64,000 nucleotides of DNA from Stenotrophomonas maltophilia R551-3 (GTDB lineage Bacteria > Pseudomonadota > Gammaproteobacteria > Xanthomonadales > Xanthomonadaceae): positions 3,586,501 to 3,650,500 of the forward strand of contig NC_011071.1 of the NCBI RefSeq assembly GCF_000020665.1. The letters run 5' to 3'. Of the stretch, positions 17,188-58,069 are shown one piece after another (within the stretch, counting starts at the first letter, position 1; every line of letters begins with the position of its first letter). The notes beneath the pieces were generated by a model. The model saw only the letters and a program-made list of their open reading frames with translations. It was not told where the DNA came from and did no database searches. Both the position numbers and the translations under genes were made by a program.

Positions 17188-17253
17188 GTGGAGCCGAGCG
17201 TGGGCTCGGCTGGATCTATCGCGAACAGCAGCCGAGCGTCGGCTCGGCTCTAC
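17188..17253. repeat. Two SMAG hairpins (GCCGAGC type)
   Basis: GAGCCGAGCGTGGGCTCGGCT at about 17190-17211 and GCCGAGCGTCGGCTCGGCTCTAC at 17231-17253. The second ends in CTCGGCTCTAC, identical to the half-sites used by the IS110 element at 50420, so it is an unoccupied target. Confidence 0.8.
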
Positions 17254-45626: not shown

Positions 45627-49327
<3,701 letters not shown>

Positions 49328-50270: not shown

Positions 50271-50421
50271 TAGCGCCGGCCCATGGCCGGCGAGCGCAGC
50301 AGTGTGGGACGGGCGTGGTGGGGGGCCGTGCCGGTCTTTGTAGGTGCGGACCGTTGGTCCGCACGGTGTTTCGGACATTCGGATACCTGACCAAAGAGCA
50401 GCCGAGCGTGGGCTCGGCTCT
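50271..50421. repeat. SMAG hairpin series left of the IS110 element
   Basis: GTAGCGCCGGCCCATGGCCGGCG (50273-50295), GTAGGTGCGGACCGTTGGTCCGCAC (50340-50364) and GCCGAGCGTGGGCTCGGC (50401-50418). The last is interrupted by IS110 at its GTAG end. A second copy of the last two hairpins, with the same spacer apart from a few substitutions, follows the element at 51672-51756. Confidence 0.8.
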
Positions 50422-50454
50422 TGTGTCTTGGATCGTGCCCTGATCAGGCACAAT

Positions 50455-50650
50455 CCCCCGGTGACCCGGGAGGCTCCGATGACGCTGCCTCGGCTCTTAA
50501 GCCTTCGAGCTTGCAAAGTAGATTCAGCGCGTCGGCGGCCTGACACCGCCATGGAACTTGAACGGTATCTTAGGCCCGCCATCGGGTGAGAGCCTGTACT
50601 CACAAGGGCAAGTCTGGCGGCTTCCGATCACGATCGTAAGTTCAAGCTGG
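50455..50650 (+). ncRNA. Predicted bridge RNA of the IS110 element
   Basis: The 5' noncoding region contains the four guides expected of an IS110 bridge RNA. Target loop: CTCGGCTCT (50489-50497), identical to the left target flank plus core, then GTAG (50518-50521), complementary to the CTAC on the right. Donor loop: ACGGTATCT (50562-50570), identical to the element's right end with core (51637-51645), then CACAAG (50601-50606), complementary to the left end CTTGTG. Target loop before donor loop is the IS621 order. A short GTGCC/GGCAC hairpin lies upstream (50435-50451). RNA ends are estimates. Confidence 0.75.
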
Positions 50651-50659
50651 AGCGAAATC

Positions 50660-51625
50660 ATGCAATTTATCGGCATCGACGCAGCCAAGGCAACTTTTGA
50701 CATCGCCCTGCCTCTATCTCACGGCAAGTATCGAACCAAGGCCAAACTCCCCAATACGCCAAAGGGTTTTGATGAGCTTCTGGCCTGGCGCGCCAAACAT
50801 GCGCCGAACGCGGCGGTAGGTATGGAGGCTACAGGCATCTATCACGAGGCCTTGGCTCAAGCACTGGTGGAAGCGGGGGTAGTGGTTCATGTGGCCAATC
50901 CCGCCCGAGTAAAGGCGTTTGGGCAGGCGGAGGGGATGCGGACCAAGACTGACCGCAGCGACGCCAAGCTGATTGCCCGGTTTTTTGAGGCACAACGCTC
51001 GGAAAAGCTGTATCCCTACGTTCCACCGACGCCCTCGGAGGTGAAGCTGCGCGCCTTGGTACGGCGTCGAGATGATCTCCAGGAAATGCTGCAGATGGAG
51101 CACAACCGCCTGGACGTTGCCGATATCTCGGTCCAGCAAGGGATCAAGGATGTGATCCGGACGTTGGAAGAGCAGATCAAGCAGGTCCAGAAGGCGATTG
51201 AGGACCATATCGATAACGATCCGGACCTGCGCCGGCGTCATCAACTGCTTACCAGCATCCCCGGTGTAGGCAACACCAGCAGTGCCCAGCTGTTGGCCAT
51301 GCTGGGGGATCTAAGCAAATACAGCGACGTGCGCCAGGTGGTTGCCCACGCGGGCCTGAATCCGGCCCAGCGTCAATCAGGAAACTACGAAGGCAAATGC
51401 CGGATATCACGCGTCGGCGACGCCAATTTCCGCAAAAAGCTGTACATGCCGGCGCTGACCGGGAAGACCCACAACCCCACACTGAAGTCCTTTGCAGACC
51501 GGCTCAGCGCGAAAGGCAAGCCCTTCAAGGTCGTCATGTGTGCAGTGATGCGCAAGCTCATCCATCTGATTTGGGGCGTACTGAGAAGTGGCCGACCCTT
51601 TGAGCCTGACGTCGCCCTTGCCTAG
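50660..51625 (+). CDS. IS110-family transposase (DEDD recombinase)
   Basis: 321 residues. The N-terminal RuvC-like domain has D in FIGIDAAKATFDIAL, E in VGMEATGIYHEAL and the D-D pair in MRTKTDRSDAKLIARF; a coiled coil (about 135-190) links it to the C-terminal Tnp domain, LLTSIPGVGNTSSAQLLAMLGDLSKY...VVAHAGLNPAQRQSG, whose serine in QSG is the catalytic candidate. Complete. ATG at 50660 preceded by TGGAGCGAAATC. Acts on DNA guided by the upstream RNA by family analogy. Confidence 0.95.
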   Translation: MQFIGIDAAKATFDIALPLSHGKYRTKAKLPNTPKGFDELLAWRAKHAPNAAVGMEATGIYHEALAQALVEAGVVVHVANPARVKAFGQAEGMRTKTDRSDAKLIARFFEAQRSEKLYPYVPPTPSEVKLRALVRRRDDLQEMLQMEHNRLDVADISVQQGIKDVIRTLEEQIKQVQKAIEDHIDNDPDLRRRHQLLTSIPGVGNTSSAQLLAMLGDLSKYSDVRQVVAHAGLNPAQRQSGNYEGKCRISRVGDANFRKKLYMPALTGKTHNPTLKSFADRLSAKGKPFKVVMCAVMRKLIHLIWGVLRSGRPFEPDVALA

Positions 51626-51663
51626 GCGAGGGCGACACGGTATCTACAAGGAGCGCGGTCCCC

Positions 51664-51756
51664 GCCTTTGGTGGGTGCGGACCGTTGGTCCGCACGGTGT
51701 TTCAGACATCCGGATGCCTGACCAAAGAGCAGCCGAGCGTGGGCTCGGCTCTACAG
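51664..51756. repeat. SMAG hairpin pair right of the IS110 element
   Basis: GTGCGGACCGTTGGTCCGCAC and GCCGAGCGTGGGCTCGGCTCTAC, a near-copy of 50340-50421. Shows that the IS110 sits in one unit of a tandem duplication; this unit is unoccupied. Confidence 0.8.
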
Positions 51757-52591: not shown

Positions 52592-55500
52592 TTACCAGCC
52601 GATGCCTACGCCGACGCCCATGCTGCGCTCACCGCTGTTGGTGAACGCACCATTGAGGCTGAAGGTGGCCGAGCCCTTCTCGTTGAGCACGCGCTGGTAA
52701 CCCACCGCCATGGCCGACTCGCCTTCGGCGTAGCCGACGCCCGCACCGAGACGGTTGTAGGTGGCCAGGCCGGCCGTGTTCATTGCCATCGCCGTCTGAG
52801 CGCTGCTCATCGCCGCCATGCGGTTGAAGCGCTTGTCCATCTTGTCCAGGCGGCGTTCGACGTTGCTGATCGCGCCATCGGTGTACTCGTTGGCGCGGGC
52901 CAGCATCTTCTCCAGCTCGGCGGTGTCGACCTGCGGCTTCGGCGACTCGTCCTTGTTGGCCTTCGGCTGCGGCGTGGGCTTGTCACCCTCGCCCAGCGAA
53001 GCGACCTGCTGGGAATCCTTGCCTTCCGGTACCACAGGAGTTTCCTCGGCCTGCGGCTTGGGCACCGAGGACGACGCCAGTGCACGCGGTGCTGGGGCAT
53101 CGTCGATGCGCTGCTCCAGCCCATCCATGCGGCCGTTGAGCTGCTGCTGCATCGAATGCAGCTGGCCACCGTTGACCGCATCGCGACTGCCGGCCGCGAT
53201 CAGGCCGTTGGCCACATTGGAGATGACCATGCCGTTGGCACCCGCGAGGGTGAGCTGGTTGACGCCGTCGGCGCGGACCGAGGGGGTGTCCTGGAAGACG
53301 GAGCGGAGCTGGGTTTCGACCTTGTCCACGCGCGAGGTTGTGGTGACGACCGCGCCATCGAGCGCCTGCAGTGCACCGTTCAAGGTGGACTGTGCCTGGC
53401 CCTGGACGTTGAAGCTCGGGCCGACGATGTTGCCGTTTGTATCCACCTCGCCGCCGAGGGCGGAAAGCGCACCGCGCAGCTGGCCGACGGTGGCGGCATT
53501 GTGATTGGCGGTGCCGTTGGCGACATTCACCAAGCGCCGCCCTGCGGCCAGACTACCGAACGATACAGTGTTCGCCTCGGTTGCCTCAGAACCTGCACCC
53601 ACTGCCACTGACCAAACCGCGCCAGCACCCACCTTGGCACCGGAGCCCATAGCGATTCCGTGCTGTGCGCTCACTTGAGATCCCGCGCCCACGGCAAAGC
53701 CGCCAACTGCTCGCTCCTCAACATATGAACCTCTTCCCAGCGCCACAGAATTAACGCCAAGCGCCGCTGCATAGGCTCCAAGCGCCGTACCACCGTCAGC
53801 CCCAGTCCTTGCAGAATCGCCGATTGCCACGCCCAAGAAGCCAGCGAAGGCATCTTCGCTCAACTCATCTGTATTGATCTTCAGGAAGCGTCCTTGATGC
53901 TCAATCTTGGATACCCGATCACTGACGCCAAACAACTGGCGACCGGTAACCACGTCGTGACTATCCCCAGAGACTGAACCATCGCCCACACCAGTCAAAC
54001 GCGCACCACCGAAGTCGATCGGGCCGTTTGCATCCATCTCTCGCATTGCCTGCTGCCCCATCTCCCGCTTCTTGCGCATTGCCTCCAGATCATTCCGATT
54101 CTGCGAGATCTTCTGCTCTGCGGCGTACAGCTGGTTGCCCGTTACGGCATCACGGCTTCCTTGGGCCACTCGGCCATCGGCAAGATTGGTCAACACCATG
54201 CCATTCACGCCATTCAGCGCGATCTGCCTCGTGCCGTCGGCGCGGGCCGAGGGTGAATCCTGGAAGATCGAGCTGAGCTGACCTTCCACCTTGTCCGCGC
54301 GACGGCCGGCGGTGATGACAGCGCCATCGAGTGCCGTCAGCGCATCCTCGACGGTGTTCTGCGTTCCGCCTTGCAGCGTGTAGGTCGGAGCGATGATATT
54401 TCCGTTGCCGTCCATGCCTGCGCCGCCGCCGAGAGTGGCGAGGGAATCATTGAGCTGAGAAACGGTGGTGGCGTTGTGGCCAGCTGTACCGCGGGCGATG
54501 TTTACAAGGCGGCGCTGGATGCCGACACTCCCGAATGACACAACCCCAACTTCATCAGCTTGGGAACCCATTCCAAGTGCCAACGAGCCGTGAGCTCCGC
54601 CTTCAACGCTTGCGCCAGCACCGATCGCTACACCTCCACGTGCACCGCCAGCGTCTCCGCCGACCTGTGCACCGACTCCCATTGCGAACCCATTCTCGGA
54701 ATCCACAGAGACACTCGCCGCTCTACCGATTGCGGTGGAGTTCCTTCCCATCGCCTCCGCAAACGTGCCCACCGCGGTCCCTCCTTCTAGTCCAGTCTTT
54801 GCTGAATTTCCGACCGCAACACCTGCCACACCGGCTGCTGCGCGCTCACTGATTGGCGCTGAGCCTATACTCACAAACTGCGCGACATCCTCAAGATCTG
54901 AGACGCGTGAATTGGTTGAATGCAGCTGCTTACCAGACACAGCCTCGGCACTACTTGCGCTCAAGAGCCCATCTGCAACGCCACTGATTCTCCGATTGGC
55001 ATTGGTACTGTTACGCACATCCAACGTCGTACCGCTGTTCTTCTCACCCAGGCGCACATTGCCGGACGCGGAAACCTGCGCCACCAGCCCGCCCAGCGCC
55101 GCTGTCTCGGTCAGTGCCTTGGCTGCATCCGTCTTCGCCACGGCAGCTTCCGTGCCCGCAGACCTGGCTATACCCTCCACCGTCGCCACCTTGTCATTGG
55201 TGGTATTGAGCTGCCTACCATTGACGGCCTCATAGCTGCTGGCGCCGACTACACCATCGGCCACTCCGGTCAGCTTCCGATTCGCGTTCGCACTGTTGCG
55301 CACATCGAGCACGGTGCCGCTGTTCTTCTCGCCAACACGAACGTTGCCGTTGACAGCGACTTGACCGACAAGCCCATTCAGCACTCCGGTGTCAGCCAGC
55401 GCCTTGTCCGCGCTGACCTTCGCTGCGCTGGCTGTCGCCTGTGCCGAATTCACGTTCGCGTTGGTTTCATGGAGCTGCTTGCCGGTCACGGCCTCATTGC

Positions 55501-58036
55501 TGGTCGCGCTGATGGCCCCTTCGGCGACGCCCACGATCTTGCGATTCGCATTGGCGCTGTTGCGCACATCCAACTGCGTGCCACTGTTCTTCTGGCCCAG
55601 ACGAACACTGCCATTGGCAGCGGTCTGGTTGACCAGGCCACCCAGCACCACCGTCTCGGCCAGTGCCTTGCCCGATTCCACCTTTGCGGCATTGGCGATG
55701 GTCGTCGCTCCGTCAGCTGCTGTCTGGGCCTTGGTCACGGCCTGGTTGGTGACATGAAGCTGGTTGCCGGTGATGGCATCGGTGCTACCGGCCCCCACCA
55801 CACCATCGGCGATGTACTGGATCTTCCGCTTCCTGCTGGCGCTGCCGACCGATACCGAATTGGCCGAAGCGGTCACTGCACCTGCGCCCAGCGCAACGGC
55901 ATTCTCATGTGAGGCCTGAGCGCGGTCACCCAGCGCCACGGAGCTGGTGTTCGTAGCCTTGGCCAGATTGCCCAGTGCGCTGGCGAATTGCGCCGTCGCC
56001 TCACTGCCACGCCCCAGCGCGGTGGCCTGGCTGGCGCCTGCCTTGCTCAGATAGCCAACCGCCGTAGCGTGCTCTGCCTCGGCCTTGGCGTCGCCACCTA
56101 CGGCAATAGAGAAGTTGCCGCTTGCGTTTGCACGGAAGCCGGTTGCAACGGCGCCGTTGGCGCTACGGGTTCCGGCGCCAACCGAGACACCCGCGTTCTG
56201 GTTGGCCACCTTGTTACCGTCCGCATCCACACCAGCGCGCGCGTCGTCGCCCAGCGCTACGCTGCGGCCGTTGTACGCCTTTGCGTTGTTGCCGAGTGCG
56301 GTGCTGATGCCGTAGCTGCCGCTCTCTGCGGTGGCACCGTTGCCCAAAGCCAAGGTCGTTGCATCGATGCGGTTCGTGGCGGCCTGTGCGATTGACTTCA
56401 CTGCGGCCAGCTCACCCGTCACATCGCCTGCGGTCTTCTCCACGGCCGCGAGCCGGGTATTGGTCTGGAACAACTGGTTGCCAGTGATGGCATCGGTGCT
56501 GCCGGCACCCACCACACCATCGGCGACGTATTGGATCTTCCGCTTCCTGCTGGCGCTGCCTACCGAAACGGAGCTTGCCGAAGCGGTTACCGATCCGGCG
56601 CCAATCGCAACAGAGTCCTCGTGCCCTGCGTGTGCACTGTTTCCAAGTGCCAGCGAATTGATGCCCGTTGCCCTGGCAAGATTGCCGACAGCGGTGGCGA
56701 ACTTCGCCGTTGCCTGTGTCCCTCGCCCCAAGGCCGTCGTCTGCTGGGCACCTGCGATACTGGTTTTTCCGAAGGCGGTACTCAACTCCTCATTGGCGAC
56801 GGCATCGGAGCCGATCGCAACGGAGAAATTGCCACCCGCAACTGCCTTGTGACCCATGGCAACGGCGCCGTGCGCACTGCGGGTGCCGGACCCGACCGAG
56901 ACTCCTCCCGTCCTGCCATTGACCTTGTTTCCTGCCACATCTACGCCTGCGCGAGCGTCGTCGCCGAGCGCAACGCTCGCTCCGTTATAGCCCTTGGCAT
57001 TATTACCCAGCGCAGTACTTGCGCCACGGGAAGTATCCGACTCAGCGACGGCCCCGTTGCCGAGCGCCAGCGCCGTCGCATCCACCCGATTGTTGACCGA
57101 TTGCGCAAGGGCTTGGGTCGCAAACAGCTGCTTGCCGCTGACGGCGTCCGTGCTTGTTGCATTCAAGCGCGCATCGGCCACGTTGACGATTCGTCGCTTG
57201 GTCGACGCGTTGCCGACGGAGACCGAGTTCGCCTCGGTCGCTTCAGAGTTGGCGCCGATGGCGACCGAGCCATTAGCCAGTGCCTTCGCATGGTGACCGA
57301 GCGCAACGCCGCTGAACTCTGCACGCGCGTTGCCACCCACTGCAATGGCTCCTGAGTAGCCAGCGGTTCCCGCAAATGCATTTCCTCCAATCGAGATGCG
57401 GGATACACCCGCCGTGCTTTCAACTGTGCGGGCGCCACTACCTACTGCTATTGAGTTCTGAGAATAAGCACGAGCATCGTGACCGACAGCAGTGGTACCA
57501 ACACCCGACGCAACCGAACTCGCACCGAGCACTGTGGAGTAGCCGCCCGTGGCTTCCGCCTTGTACCCAACCGCCACAGCCCGGTCCCCCTTTGCAATCG
57601 CCTCATTTCCGACAAGCACGCTTCCCCTCCCTGCCAGCGCCGACGCGGTGCCGACGACCACGGAACCCCAACCGTTGATGCTGGATCTGGAGCCCAGAAT
57701 CATCTGCATGTCACCATTGAGGGTTGAGTCTTTGTAGTAGGCATCGTTCACGATGGCGCCTTGCACCACGATCTTGCGTGGTTGCGCAGCGAACAGCGAA
57801 GAGATCATTGGAGAGCTGGACAGGAACCTAGCCACCTCTTCCTGAGGCTCTCCGTTCTCATACTCATCCTTCGGGCGCTCTTGTGCTGATGCAGACATCC
57901 CGACCGATGCAACAGCCGCCAGTACCAGCAACCGCGGCTTGGTCCGAGAGGATTTTCTGCGCGGACTACTCAACTCACTGCCCACCACCCAGCATTGCTT
58001 GGCCACACTCCAGATACGTCGATAGATTCGATTCAT
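52592..58036 (-). CDS. Trimeric autotransporter adhesin (YadA-like, type Vc)
   Basis: 1,814 residues. ATG at 58036 follows AAGGAGAGCAAGC; it gives an extended signal peptide (ESPR) MNRIYRRIWSVAKQCWVVGSEL before the hydrophobic core ending near residue 51. Head: repeated YadA-type collagen-like beta-roll repeats (VALGDDAR, TALGRG, SLALGNSAHAG), in two closely similar blocks, each closing with SVSVGSASRKRKIQYVADGVVGAGSTDAITGNQL. Stalk: three modules of GNVRLGEKNSGTTLDVRNSANANRKI plus neck ATSNEAVTGKQLHETN. Two more head segments follow. The last 90 residues are the beta-barrel anchor, ending MGVGVGIGW. Mediates adhesion or autoaggregation. Confidence 0.93.
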   Translation of the reverse strand: MNRIYRRIWSVAKQCWVVGSELSSPRRKSSRTKPRLLVLAAVASVGMSASAQERPKDEYENGEPQEEVARFLSSSPMISSLFAAQPRKIVVQGAIVNDAYYKDSTLNGDMQMILGSRSSINGWGSVVVGTASALAGRGSVLVGNEAIAKGDRAVAVGYKAEATGGYSTVLGASSVASGVGTTAVGHDARAYSQNSIAVGSGARTVESTAGVSRISIGGNAFAGTAGYSGAIAVGGNARAEFSGVALGHHAKALANGSVAIGANSEATEANSVSVGNASTKRRIVNVADARLNATSTDAVSGKQLFATQALAQSVNNRVDATALALGNGAVAESDTSRGASTALGNNAKGYNGASVALGDDARAGVDVAGNKVNGRTGGVSVGSGTRSAHGAVAMGHKAVAGGNFSVAIGSDAVANEELSTAFGKTSIAGAQQTTALGRGTQATAKFATAVGNLARATGINSLALGNSAHAGHEDSVAIGAGSVTASASSVSVGSASRKRKIQYVADGVVGAGSTDAITGNQLFQTNTRLAAVEKTAGDVTGELAAVKSIAQAATNRIDATTLALGNGATAESGSYGISTALGNNAKAYNGRSVALGDDARAGVDADGNKVANQNAGVSVGAGTRSANGAVATGFRANASGNFSIAVGGDAKAEAEHATAVGYLSKAGASQATALGRGSEATAQFASALGNLAKATNTSSVALGDRAQASHENAVALGAGAVTASANSVSVGSASRKRKIQYIADGVVGAGSTDAITGNQLHVTNQAVTKAQTAADGATTIANAAKVESGKALAETVVLGGLVNQTAANGSVRLGQKNSGTQLDVRNSANANRKIVGVAEGAISATSNEAVTGKQLHETNANVNSAQATASAAKVSADKALADTGVLNGLVGQVAVNGNVRVGEKNSGTVLDVRNSANANRKLTGVADGVVGASSYEAVNGRQLNTTNDKVATVEGIARSAGTEAAVAKTDAAKALTETAALGGLVAQVSASGNVRLGEKNSGTTLDVRNSTNANRRISGVADGLLSASSAEAVSGKQLHSTNSRVSDLEDVAQFVSIGSAPISERAAAGVAGVAVGNSAKTGLEGGTAVGTFAEAMGRNSTAIGRAASVSVDSENGFAMGVGAQVGGDAGGARGGVAIGAGASVEGGAHGSLALGMGSQADEVGVVSFGSVGIQRRLVNIARGTAGHNATTVSQLNDSLATLGGGAGMDGNGNIIAPTYTLQGGTQNTVEDALTALDGAVITAGRRADKVEGQLSSIFQDSPSARADGTRQIALNGVNGMVLTNLADGRVAQGSRDAVTGNQLYAAEQKISQNRNDLEAMRKKREMGQQAMREMDANGPIDFGGARLTGVGDGSVSGDSHDVVTGRQLFGVSDRVSKIEHQGRFLKINTDELSEDAFAGFLGVAIGDSARTGADGGTALGAYAAALGVNSVALGRGSYVEERAVGGFAVGAGSQVSAQHGIAMGSGAKVGAGAVWSVAVGAGSEATEANTVSFGSLAAGRRLVNVANGTANHNAATVGQLRGALSALGGEVDTNGNIVGPSFNVQGQAQSTLNGALQALDGAVVTTTSRVDKVETQLRSVFQDTPSVRADGVNQLTLAGANGMVISNVANGLIAAGSRDAVNGGQLHSMQQQLNGRMDGLEQRIDDAPAPRALASSSVPKPQAEETPVVPEGKDSQQVASLGEGDKPTPQPKANKDESPKPQVDTAELEKMLARANEYTDGAISNVERRLDKMDKRFNRMAAMSSAQTAMAMNTAGLATYNRLGAGVGYAEGESAMAVGYQRVLNEKGSATFSLNGAFTNSGERSMGVGVGIGW

Positions 58037-58069
58037 GCTTGCTCTCCTTAACACCAAAGGGATATGAAG

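Follow-up and report, generated by a model that had tools for sequence, protein, structure and literature searches.

A 2003 paper on IS621 reportedly described the targeting of REP palindromes by an IS110 element. Both REP targeting (since 2003-2006) and the RNA-guide mechanism of such elements are already in print. Bridge RNAs and guide-target covariation over 5,511 pairs have been established, along with an 11-nt target that has CT as its core and the insertion of IS621 into REPs (PMC11208160); structures of the IS621 system have been reported (PMC11208158), and RNA guidance is described for IS1111 and IS110 elements (PMC11187229). REPs are reported as targets of insertion sequences in PMC1525189, by the description in which ISPpu9, ISPpu10, ISPa11, ISPsy8 and other insertion sequences enter host REP palindromes, as does the element analysed here; ISPa11 belongs to the IS1111 type and has its RNA downstream of tnp (PMC11187229), unlike the upstream leader of our element. 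SMAGs, which PMC3733652 assigns to GTAG families 6-9, and the other GTAG REPs with their RAYT transposases (PMC2817692, PMC3733652) are relevant as the landing site and are no kin of the element.

The window, that is, the whole 64,000-nucleotide stretch of the Stenotrophomonas maltophilia R551-3 genome that was analysed, contains an intact IS110 element at positions 50422-51645, as read from the sequence with the right-hand core counted in; the core CT at 50420-50421 is followed by TGTGTC. The element consists of a left non-coding end (LE) of 238 nt (50422..50659, + strand) that houses the predicted bridge RNA, the 321-aa recombinase gene tnp (50660..51625, +), and a right non-coding end (RE) of 20 nt that includes the right-hand core CT (51626..51645, +). 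The long LE upstream of tnp and the short RE place it in the IS110 group and not in IS1111, in accord with the rule given in PMC11208160 (long non-coding left end, short right end). The recombinase carries both IS110 Pfam domains (PF01548 and PF02371), passes the cut-off of the NCBIfam model NF033542, “IS110 family RNA-guided transposase,” and at E 0.001 its sequence matches only two solved structures, those of the homologous recombinases of IS621 (8wt6, E 3.9e-69) and ISCro4 (9t56, E 3.4e-68). Residues D7, E56, D98 and D101, which we take to be the DEDD residues, are invariant among 6 proteins. As expected of an IS621-type enzyme, a DEDD (RuvC-like) domain is combined with a Transposase_20 domain that contains a conserved serine: by hand count, S240 is aligned with chain serine 243 of 8wt6, which we take to be S241 of the IS621 paper, assuming a tag offset. 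Searches of the element against plasmid and phage collections and against a defence library produced no match. By their Pfam domains, the neighboring genes encode a class A penicillin-binding protein (46904-49327, +) and an 1821-aa YadA-like trimeric autotransporter adhesin (52592-58057, -).

The original prediction placed four guide segments in the leader, and all of them are present in the sequence at the positions that it gave. The left target guide with the core, CTCGGCTCT (50489..50497, +), has the same letters as the left flank together with the core; the right target guide, GTAG (50518..50521, +), is the complement of CTAC; the left donor guide, ACGGTATCT (50562..50570, +), equals the right end of the element at 51637-51645; and the right donor guide, CACAAG (50601..50606, +), is by inspection complementary to the left-end sequence CTTGTG. 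Among relatives, an exact match of at least 7 nt between the left donor guide and the element's own right end was found in 60 of 62 leaders, and the position of the right donor guide in the aligned leaders is occupied by ACAAG or GCAAG. Thus, as in IS621-type elements, the target guides are complementary to the insertion site around the CT core and the donor guides to the element ends (for the right donor guide, by inspection only). The correspondence with IS621 of Escherichia coli, as described in PMC11208160, extends to the upstream location of the predicted bridge RNA, with the target loop preceding the donor loop, and to the 11-nt target (7 + CT + AC) with its CT core at the CTAC end of a REP. 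The two elements differ in the programme, CTCGGCT-CT in the window guide as opposed to ATCGGGC-CT in IS621 (PMC11208160), and in the host repeat, which for the window element is SMAG; the RNA of the latter is predicted from its sequence.

The insertion splits the target into a left part formed by the SMAG palindrome (50400..50421; AGCCGAGCGTGGGCTCGGCT plus the core CT, with the arms AGCCGAGC..GCTCGGCT at 50400-50419) and a right half, AC, at 51646..51647. The target belongs to a Smal1-like REP and takes up its GTAG end; this REP is listed as TGTAGAGCCGAGCCCATGCTCGGCT in the 2010 table (PMC2817692) and is recognizable as a SMAG from its short palindrome, GTAG end and many copies per genome. The repeat type GCTCGGCTCTAC is present in 138 exact sites in the host genome, and the reversed pattern in none. 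Two unoccupied exact targets, CTCGGCTCTAC, are found in the window, one at 17243..17253 (+), as originally stated, and the other in the next tandem SMAG unit, at 51744..51754 (+) and not at 51746-51756, as first given; with at most one mismatch, the window contains 8 such sites compared to 0.77 expected from shuffles.

A left-end pattern search identified 7 copies of the element in the host genome, all 7 inserted at CTCGGCT, with core CT and right flank AC, such that the target half-sites map, as anticipated, to the GTAG end of the SMAG palindrome. That other insertions would fall at CTCGGCT-CT-AC had been named beforehand as a test, and this holds for 13 of the 13 close copies with both ends readable, namely, the 7 in the host genome, 4 in the genome denoted G090 (at 95% identity) and 2 in G073, each of these last two containing a 10-N scaffold gap. 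Two further readable left ends, L003 (in G013) and L016 (in G073), also agree. Candidate internally deleted (MITE-like) copies in G073 (L005, L016, L021 and L025) were rejected, the apparent deletions being 10-N scaffold gaps.

Another CTAC-ended word, GCCGGCRCTACC, has the CTAC half in common with the target, fits other Stenotrophomonas REPs in the table of PMC2817692 and occurs at 316 sites in the host genome (reversed pattern, 23), but none of the 7 insertions is located there (binomial probability 3e-4 with the two classes as alternatives). Since both words fit the right guide GTAG, it is the left guide that explains the choice of site. These observations also bear on the notion that the SMAG association reflects survivorship, whereby insertions elsewhere were lost, SMAGs being intergenic and harmless. 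Genomes do show retained copies only, and REPs are mostly intergenic according to the literature; nevertheless, the retained copies occupy the same base of one SMAG type in 7 of 7 cases and none of the 316 other CTAC-ended sites, and selection against gene damage alone yields neither base precision nor guide matching, so that we find this explanation barely conceivable. The carrier genomes G000 (the host), G013, G038, G073 and G090 are all among the 30 of 90 genomes with at least 92 exact sites (hypergeometric probability 0.003, with G014 left out), a link between element presence and site number to which we attach little weight: the threshold is the lowest carrier's count, chosen post hoc, and kinship is ignored.

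When the window flanks are joined, they read GGGCTCGGCT-CT-ACAAGGAGCGCGG, and the orthologous locus in G090 (L172) is empty, with the sequence GGGCTCGGCTCTACAGGGAGCGTGG; L163 is empty too. The choice of the orthologous SMAG unit rests on a short stretch because the locus holds tandem SMAG units. This tandem array of SMAG-bearing units around the window insertion could be taken to indicate that the copies spread within SMAG BIME units that the REP transposase (RAYT) copied or relocated, the common flank being inherited. Such a scenario appears extremely unlikely given that the flanks of the 7 host copies differ beyond SMAG and to the right of AC, that orthologous SMAGs lacking the element exist at the one locus compared, that of the window insertion, and that the same split is found in unrelated palindromes of other genera.

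Two sources supplied the relatives for the family-wide comparison of guides and targets: 395 genomes of the host's family, 12 of which contained matches with an E-value no worse than 1e-60, and GTDB contigs, of which the best 80 among 150 were kept. Most of these contigs come from Pseudomonas and Stutzerimonas; Halomonas, Thioalkalivibrio, Zoogloea and others are also represented. Among the 160 loci examined, 8 were dropped for want of a tnp hit and 29 for want of a left end readable by pattern; 68 unique leaders were aligned blind to the targets, 3 of these had no left flank, and the 65 used comprised 47 distinct guide/target pairs. The left target guide co-varies with the target across the family: 31 of the 47 pairs match in 7 of 7 positions and 40 in at least 6, with a mean of 6.43 compared to 4.09 for permuted pairs (standard deviation 0.14; largest of 5000 permutations 4.66; kinship uncorrected), and for 38 of the 47, the own target is the best, or tied for the best, among 32 targets. 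Fewer than 6 of 7 positions match in the remaining 7 pairs (L013, L095, L117, L122, L136, L137 and L138). In L138, from Halomonas beimenensis, the left flank misfits the guide and looks like the beginning of the tnp gene of the element itself; this copy is perhaps a nested insertion. On the right side, guide and target are GTAG:CTAC at 94 of 109 loci (a few insertions having been fetched twice). Rarer targets match their own guides (ACAG:CTGT, CTAG:CTAG and TTAG:CTAA) or pair with them by wobble (GTAG:CTGC, TTAG:CTAG and TTAG:CTGA), and one of the two positions is unpaired in ATAG:CTAC (8 loci) and GTAG:CTAA (1 locus).

The insertion sites of the relatives are rich in palindromes. An inverted repeat of at least 6 nt ending near the core accompanies 78 of 101 unique insertions, compared to 14% of 2012 45-mers drawn at random from these loci. 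Accordingly, the hairpin could be read by the protein, and the recombinase itself might recognize SMAG DNA or the hairpin, the matching leader segments being incidental. In favor of such direct reading, target similarity retains a small partial correlation with protein identity when the guide is fixed (0.14, reached by 29 of 2000 permutations). However, guides and targets change together: at fixed protein identity, target similarity correlates with guide similarity with a partial r of 0.62 (0 of 2000 permutations; kinship uncorrected). Both coefficients come from 54 leaders, or 30 distinct pairs, kept after 14 of the 68 were dropped (3 with no left flank, 2 with no core CT in the guide segment and 9 with an incomplete protein); in one locus, L081, the guide is misplaced by the rule. 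Furthermore, 23 of the 101 insertions show no such inverted repeat, and closely related recombinases have unlike targets that are predicted by the guides: two elements from Zoogloea MAGs, L099 and L100, with recombinases 86% identical, have ACCCGAC and GCCGCCC as their guides, and in each element guide and target are identical. Direct reading by the recombinase is, in our estimate, very unlikely.

RNA guidance would also imply a two-loop RNA, as originally predicted. Plain folding of 50470-50660 was no more stable than that of shuffled sequences (z -0.72), and the target loop did not appear in free folding or in consensus folding alone: RNAalifold on 25 leaders recovered the donor stem-loop and not the target stem-loop. 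For this reason, a constrained fold was run against shuffles, with the guides held unpaired and outer and inner helices required around both guide pairs. This two-loop topology, target loop first and donor loop second as in IS621-type elements, was obtained for 63 of 67 leaders (L137 left out) compared to 2 of 201 shuffles and is thus conserved in the family. In the window leader, where the guides-unpaired fold is less stable than the free fold (-66.9 vs -74.7), the constrained fold delineates a predicted 5' stem-loop (50457..50470, +), a predicted target-binding stem-loop (50471..50541, +; missed by consensus folding) and a predicted donor-binding stem-loop (50546..50620, +), for which compensatory pairs are present in the consensus fold as well. 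The leader produced no Rfam hit at gathering thresholds, and a consensus scan found no sigma-70-like promoter; production of the bridge RNA is deduced from homology. The only terminator-like score in the consensus scan came from the SMAG hairpin combined with the T-rich left end, a combination (50400-50429) that exists after insertion. Throughout the family, the leader and tnp have the palindrome on their 5' side, so that, in the window element, the SMAG upstream might protect both from read-through. A tandem duplication of about 15 nt in the target loop, repeating the left guide, was noticed in L003/L063 of Stenotrophomonas cyclobalanopsidis TPQG1-4 (G013).

A case of apparent natural re-programming comes from a congener, G014. 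This genome contains no sites of GCTCGGCTCTAC, but GCCCCGCA-N(0-2)-CTAC is matched 202 times (5 times for the reversed pattern), with a gap of exactly one base in all 100 of the matches listed. Its element aligns with that of the window at 71-73% over the first 336-426 nt, has the guide CTCCGCACT instead of CTCGGCTCT, and all 4 readable left ends lie within GCCCCGCA-C/T-CT, the genome's own palindrome; the right ends, located on other contigs and fetched by a pattern that included CTAC, were not counted. The situation originally named as refuting, insertion at sites that do not match the window guide, thus does arise in this one congener, with 4 of 4 readable left ends in another palindrome, but the changed guide fits that palindrome with one base of slippage. 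The G014 copies favor RNA guidance because their altered guide fits their own palindrome. The fit of this guide (L006, L013, L017 and L022) is attained only with a one-base shift, the unmatched target base being either C or T; a bulge would account for the misfit, and so would a shifted register combined with wobble at the core.

Taken together, these results lead us to conclude, with a probability of about 0.93, that the window harbors an IS621-type IS110 element with a bridge RNA that directs it to one SMAG type, at the end of the repeat that carries GTAG. The observation behind the original prediction is confirmed and its interpretation supported by the agreement of the guides with the targets and donor ends, the coupling of guides and targets within the family and a two-loop fold that is conserved, all manifest at the sequence level. 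Transcription, RNA binding, circle formation and strand exchange are taken from the published IS621 system. By analogy with it, the leader would encode a bridge RNA with one loop for the target and another for the donor, and the recombinase would cut out the element as a circle. In the target loop, the left guide would pair with CTCGGCT-CT and the right guide with CTAC, where the Smal1-like REP has its GTAG end. Pairing of the donor loop would be with the joined element ends, and strand exchange would take place at the CT core.

A second IS110 lineage uses the same repeat family at another position. The locus of G025 orthologous to that in the window holds another IS110 element (L162:1990-3235, 1246 nt), and the orthologous locus of G034 holds the left end of this second lineage (L166). 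Its protein shares 30% identity with the window recombinase across 301 positions and likewise passes that NCBIfam model. The insertion is in the SMAG centre, GTCGAGCATGG-CT-CGACTCTAC, and the leader contains GAGTCGAGC, the reverse complement of GCTCGACTC. In a search of the genus, 17 of 91 genomes matched this lineage, although in 5 of these the matching pieces are no longer than about 50 nt, and there was no match in the host genome. A base of the right guide switches with the SMAG variant at all 12 loci with both ends read (GAGTCGAG with CGACT and GAGCCGAG with CGGCT; by eye, among L191-L220), guide and target agree over six right-hand bases at 11 of these 12 loci, and the left guide fits only partially.

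The exact 11-mer target recurs 42 times, compared to 0.4 expected, in the flanks of 59 loci, with the caveat that several loci are neighbors on one contig and a few sites may be counted twice; the recurrence is confined to 20 of the 59 flanks, the other 39 having no further exact site. Many of the recurring targets among the examples printed are palindromes ending in CTAC. Because inverted repeats adjoin the core and targets recur in the flanks, we favor a reading with a fixed GTAG and a moving stem. It appears reasonably probable that, in many Gammaproteobacteria and Betaproteobacteria, IS621-type IS110 elements share GTAG-headed REP palindromes as a docking code: the right guide would stay fixed on GTAG, the hallmark of these repeats, and the left guide would mutate after the host stem, allowing the lineage to outlast REP turnover, as in G014, and with the second Stenotrophomonas lineage programmed to the SMAG centre, one repeat family would serve two RNA-guided elements at different bases.

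Among the open-access papers searched, none was recognised as dealing with an IS110 element directed at SMAG. What is new here is the SMAG programme, the pattern of a right guide fixed on GTAG with a left guide that follows the host palindrome, and the second IS110 lineage at the SMAG centre. SMAGs and other GTAG repeats become predictable landing sites, the use of which can be read from the guide. The value of these findings lies in the two lineages on one repeat family and in the natural series of guide re-programming, which includes G014 with its switched target and the Zoogloea pair with unlike targets; such a series can show how the targets of bridge-RNA elements change in evolution and gives testable sets of recombinase, guide and target.
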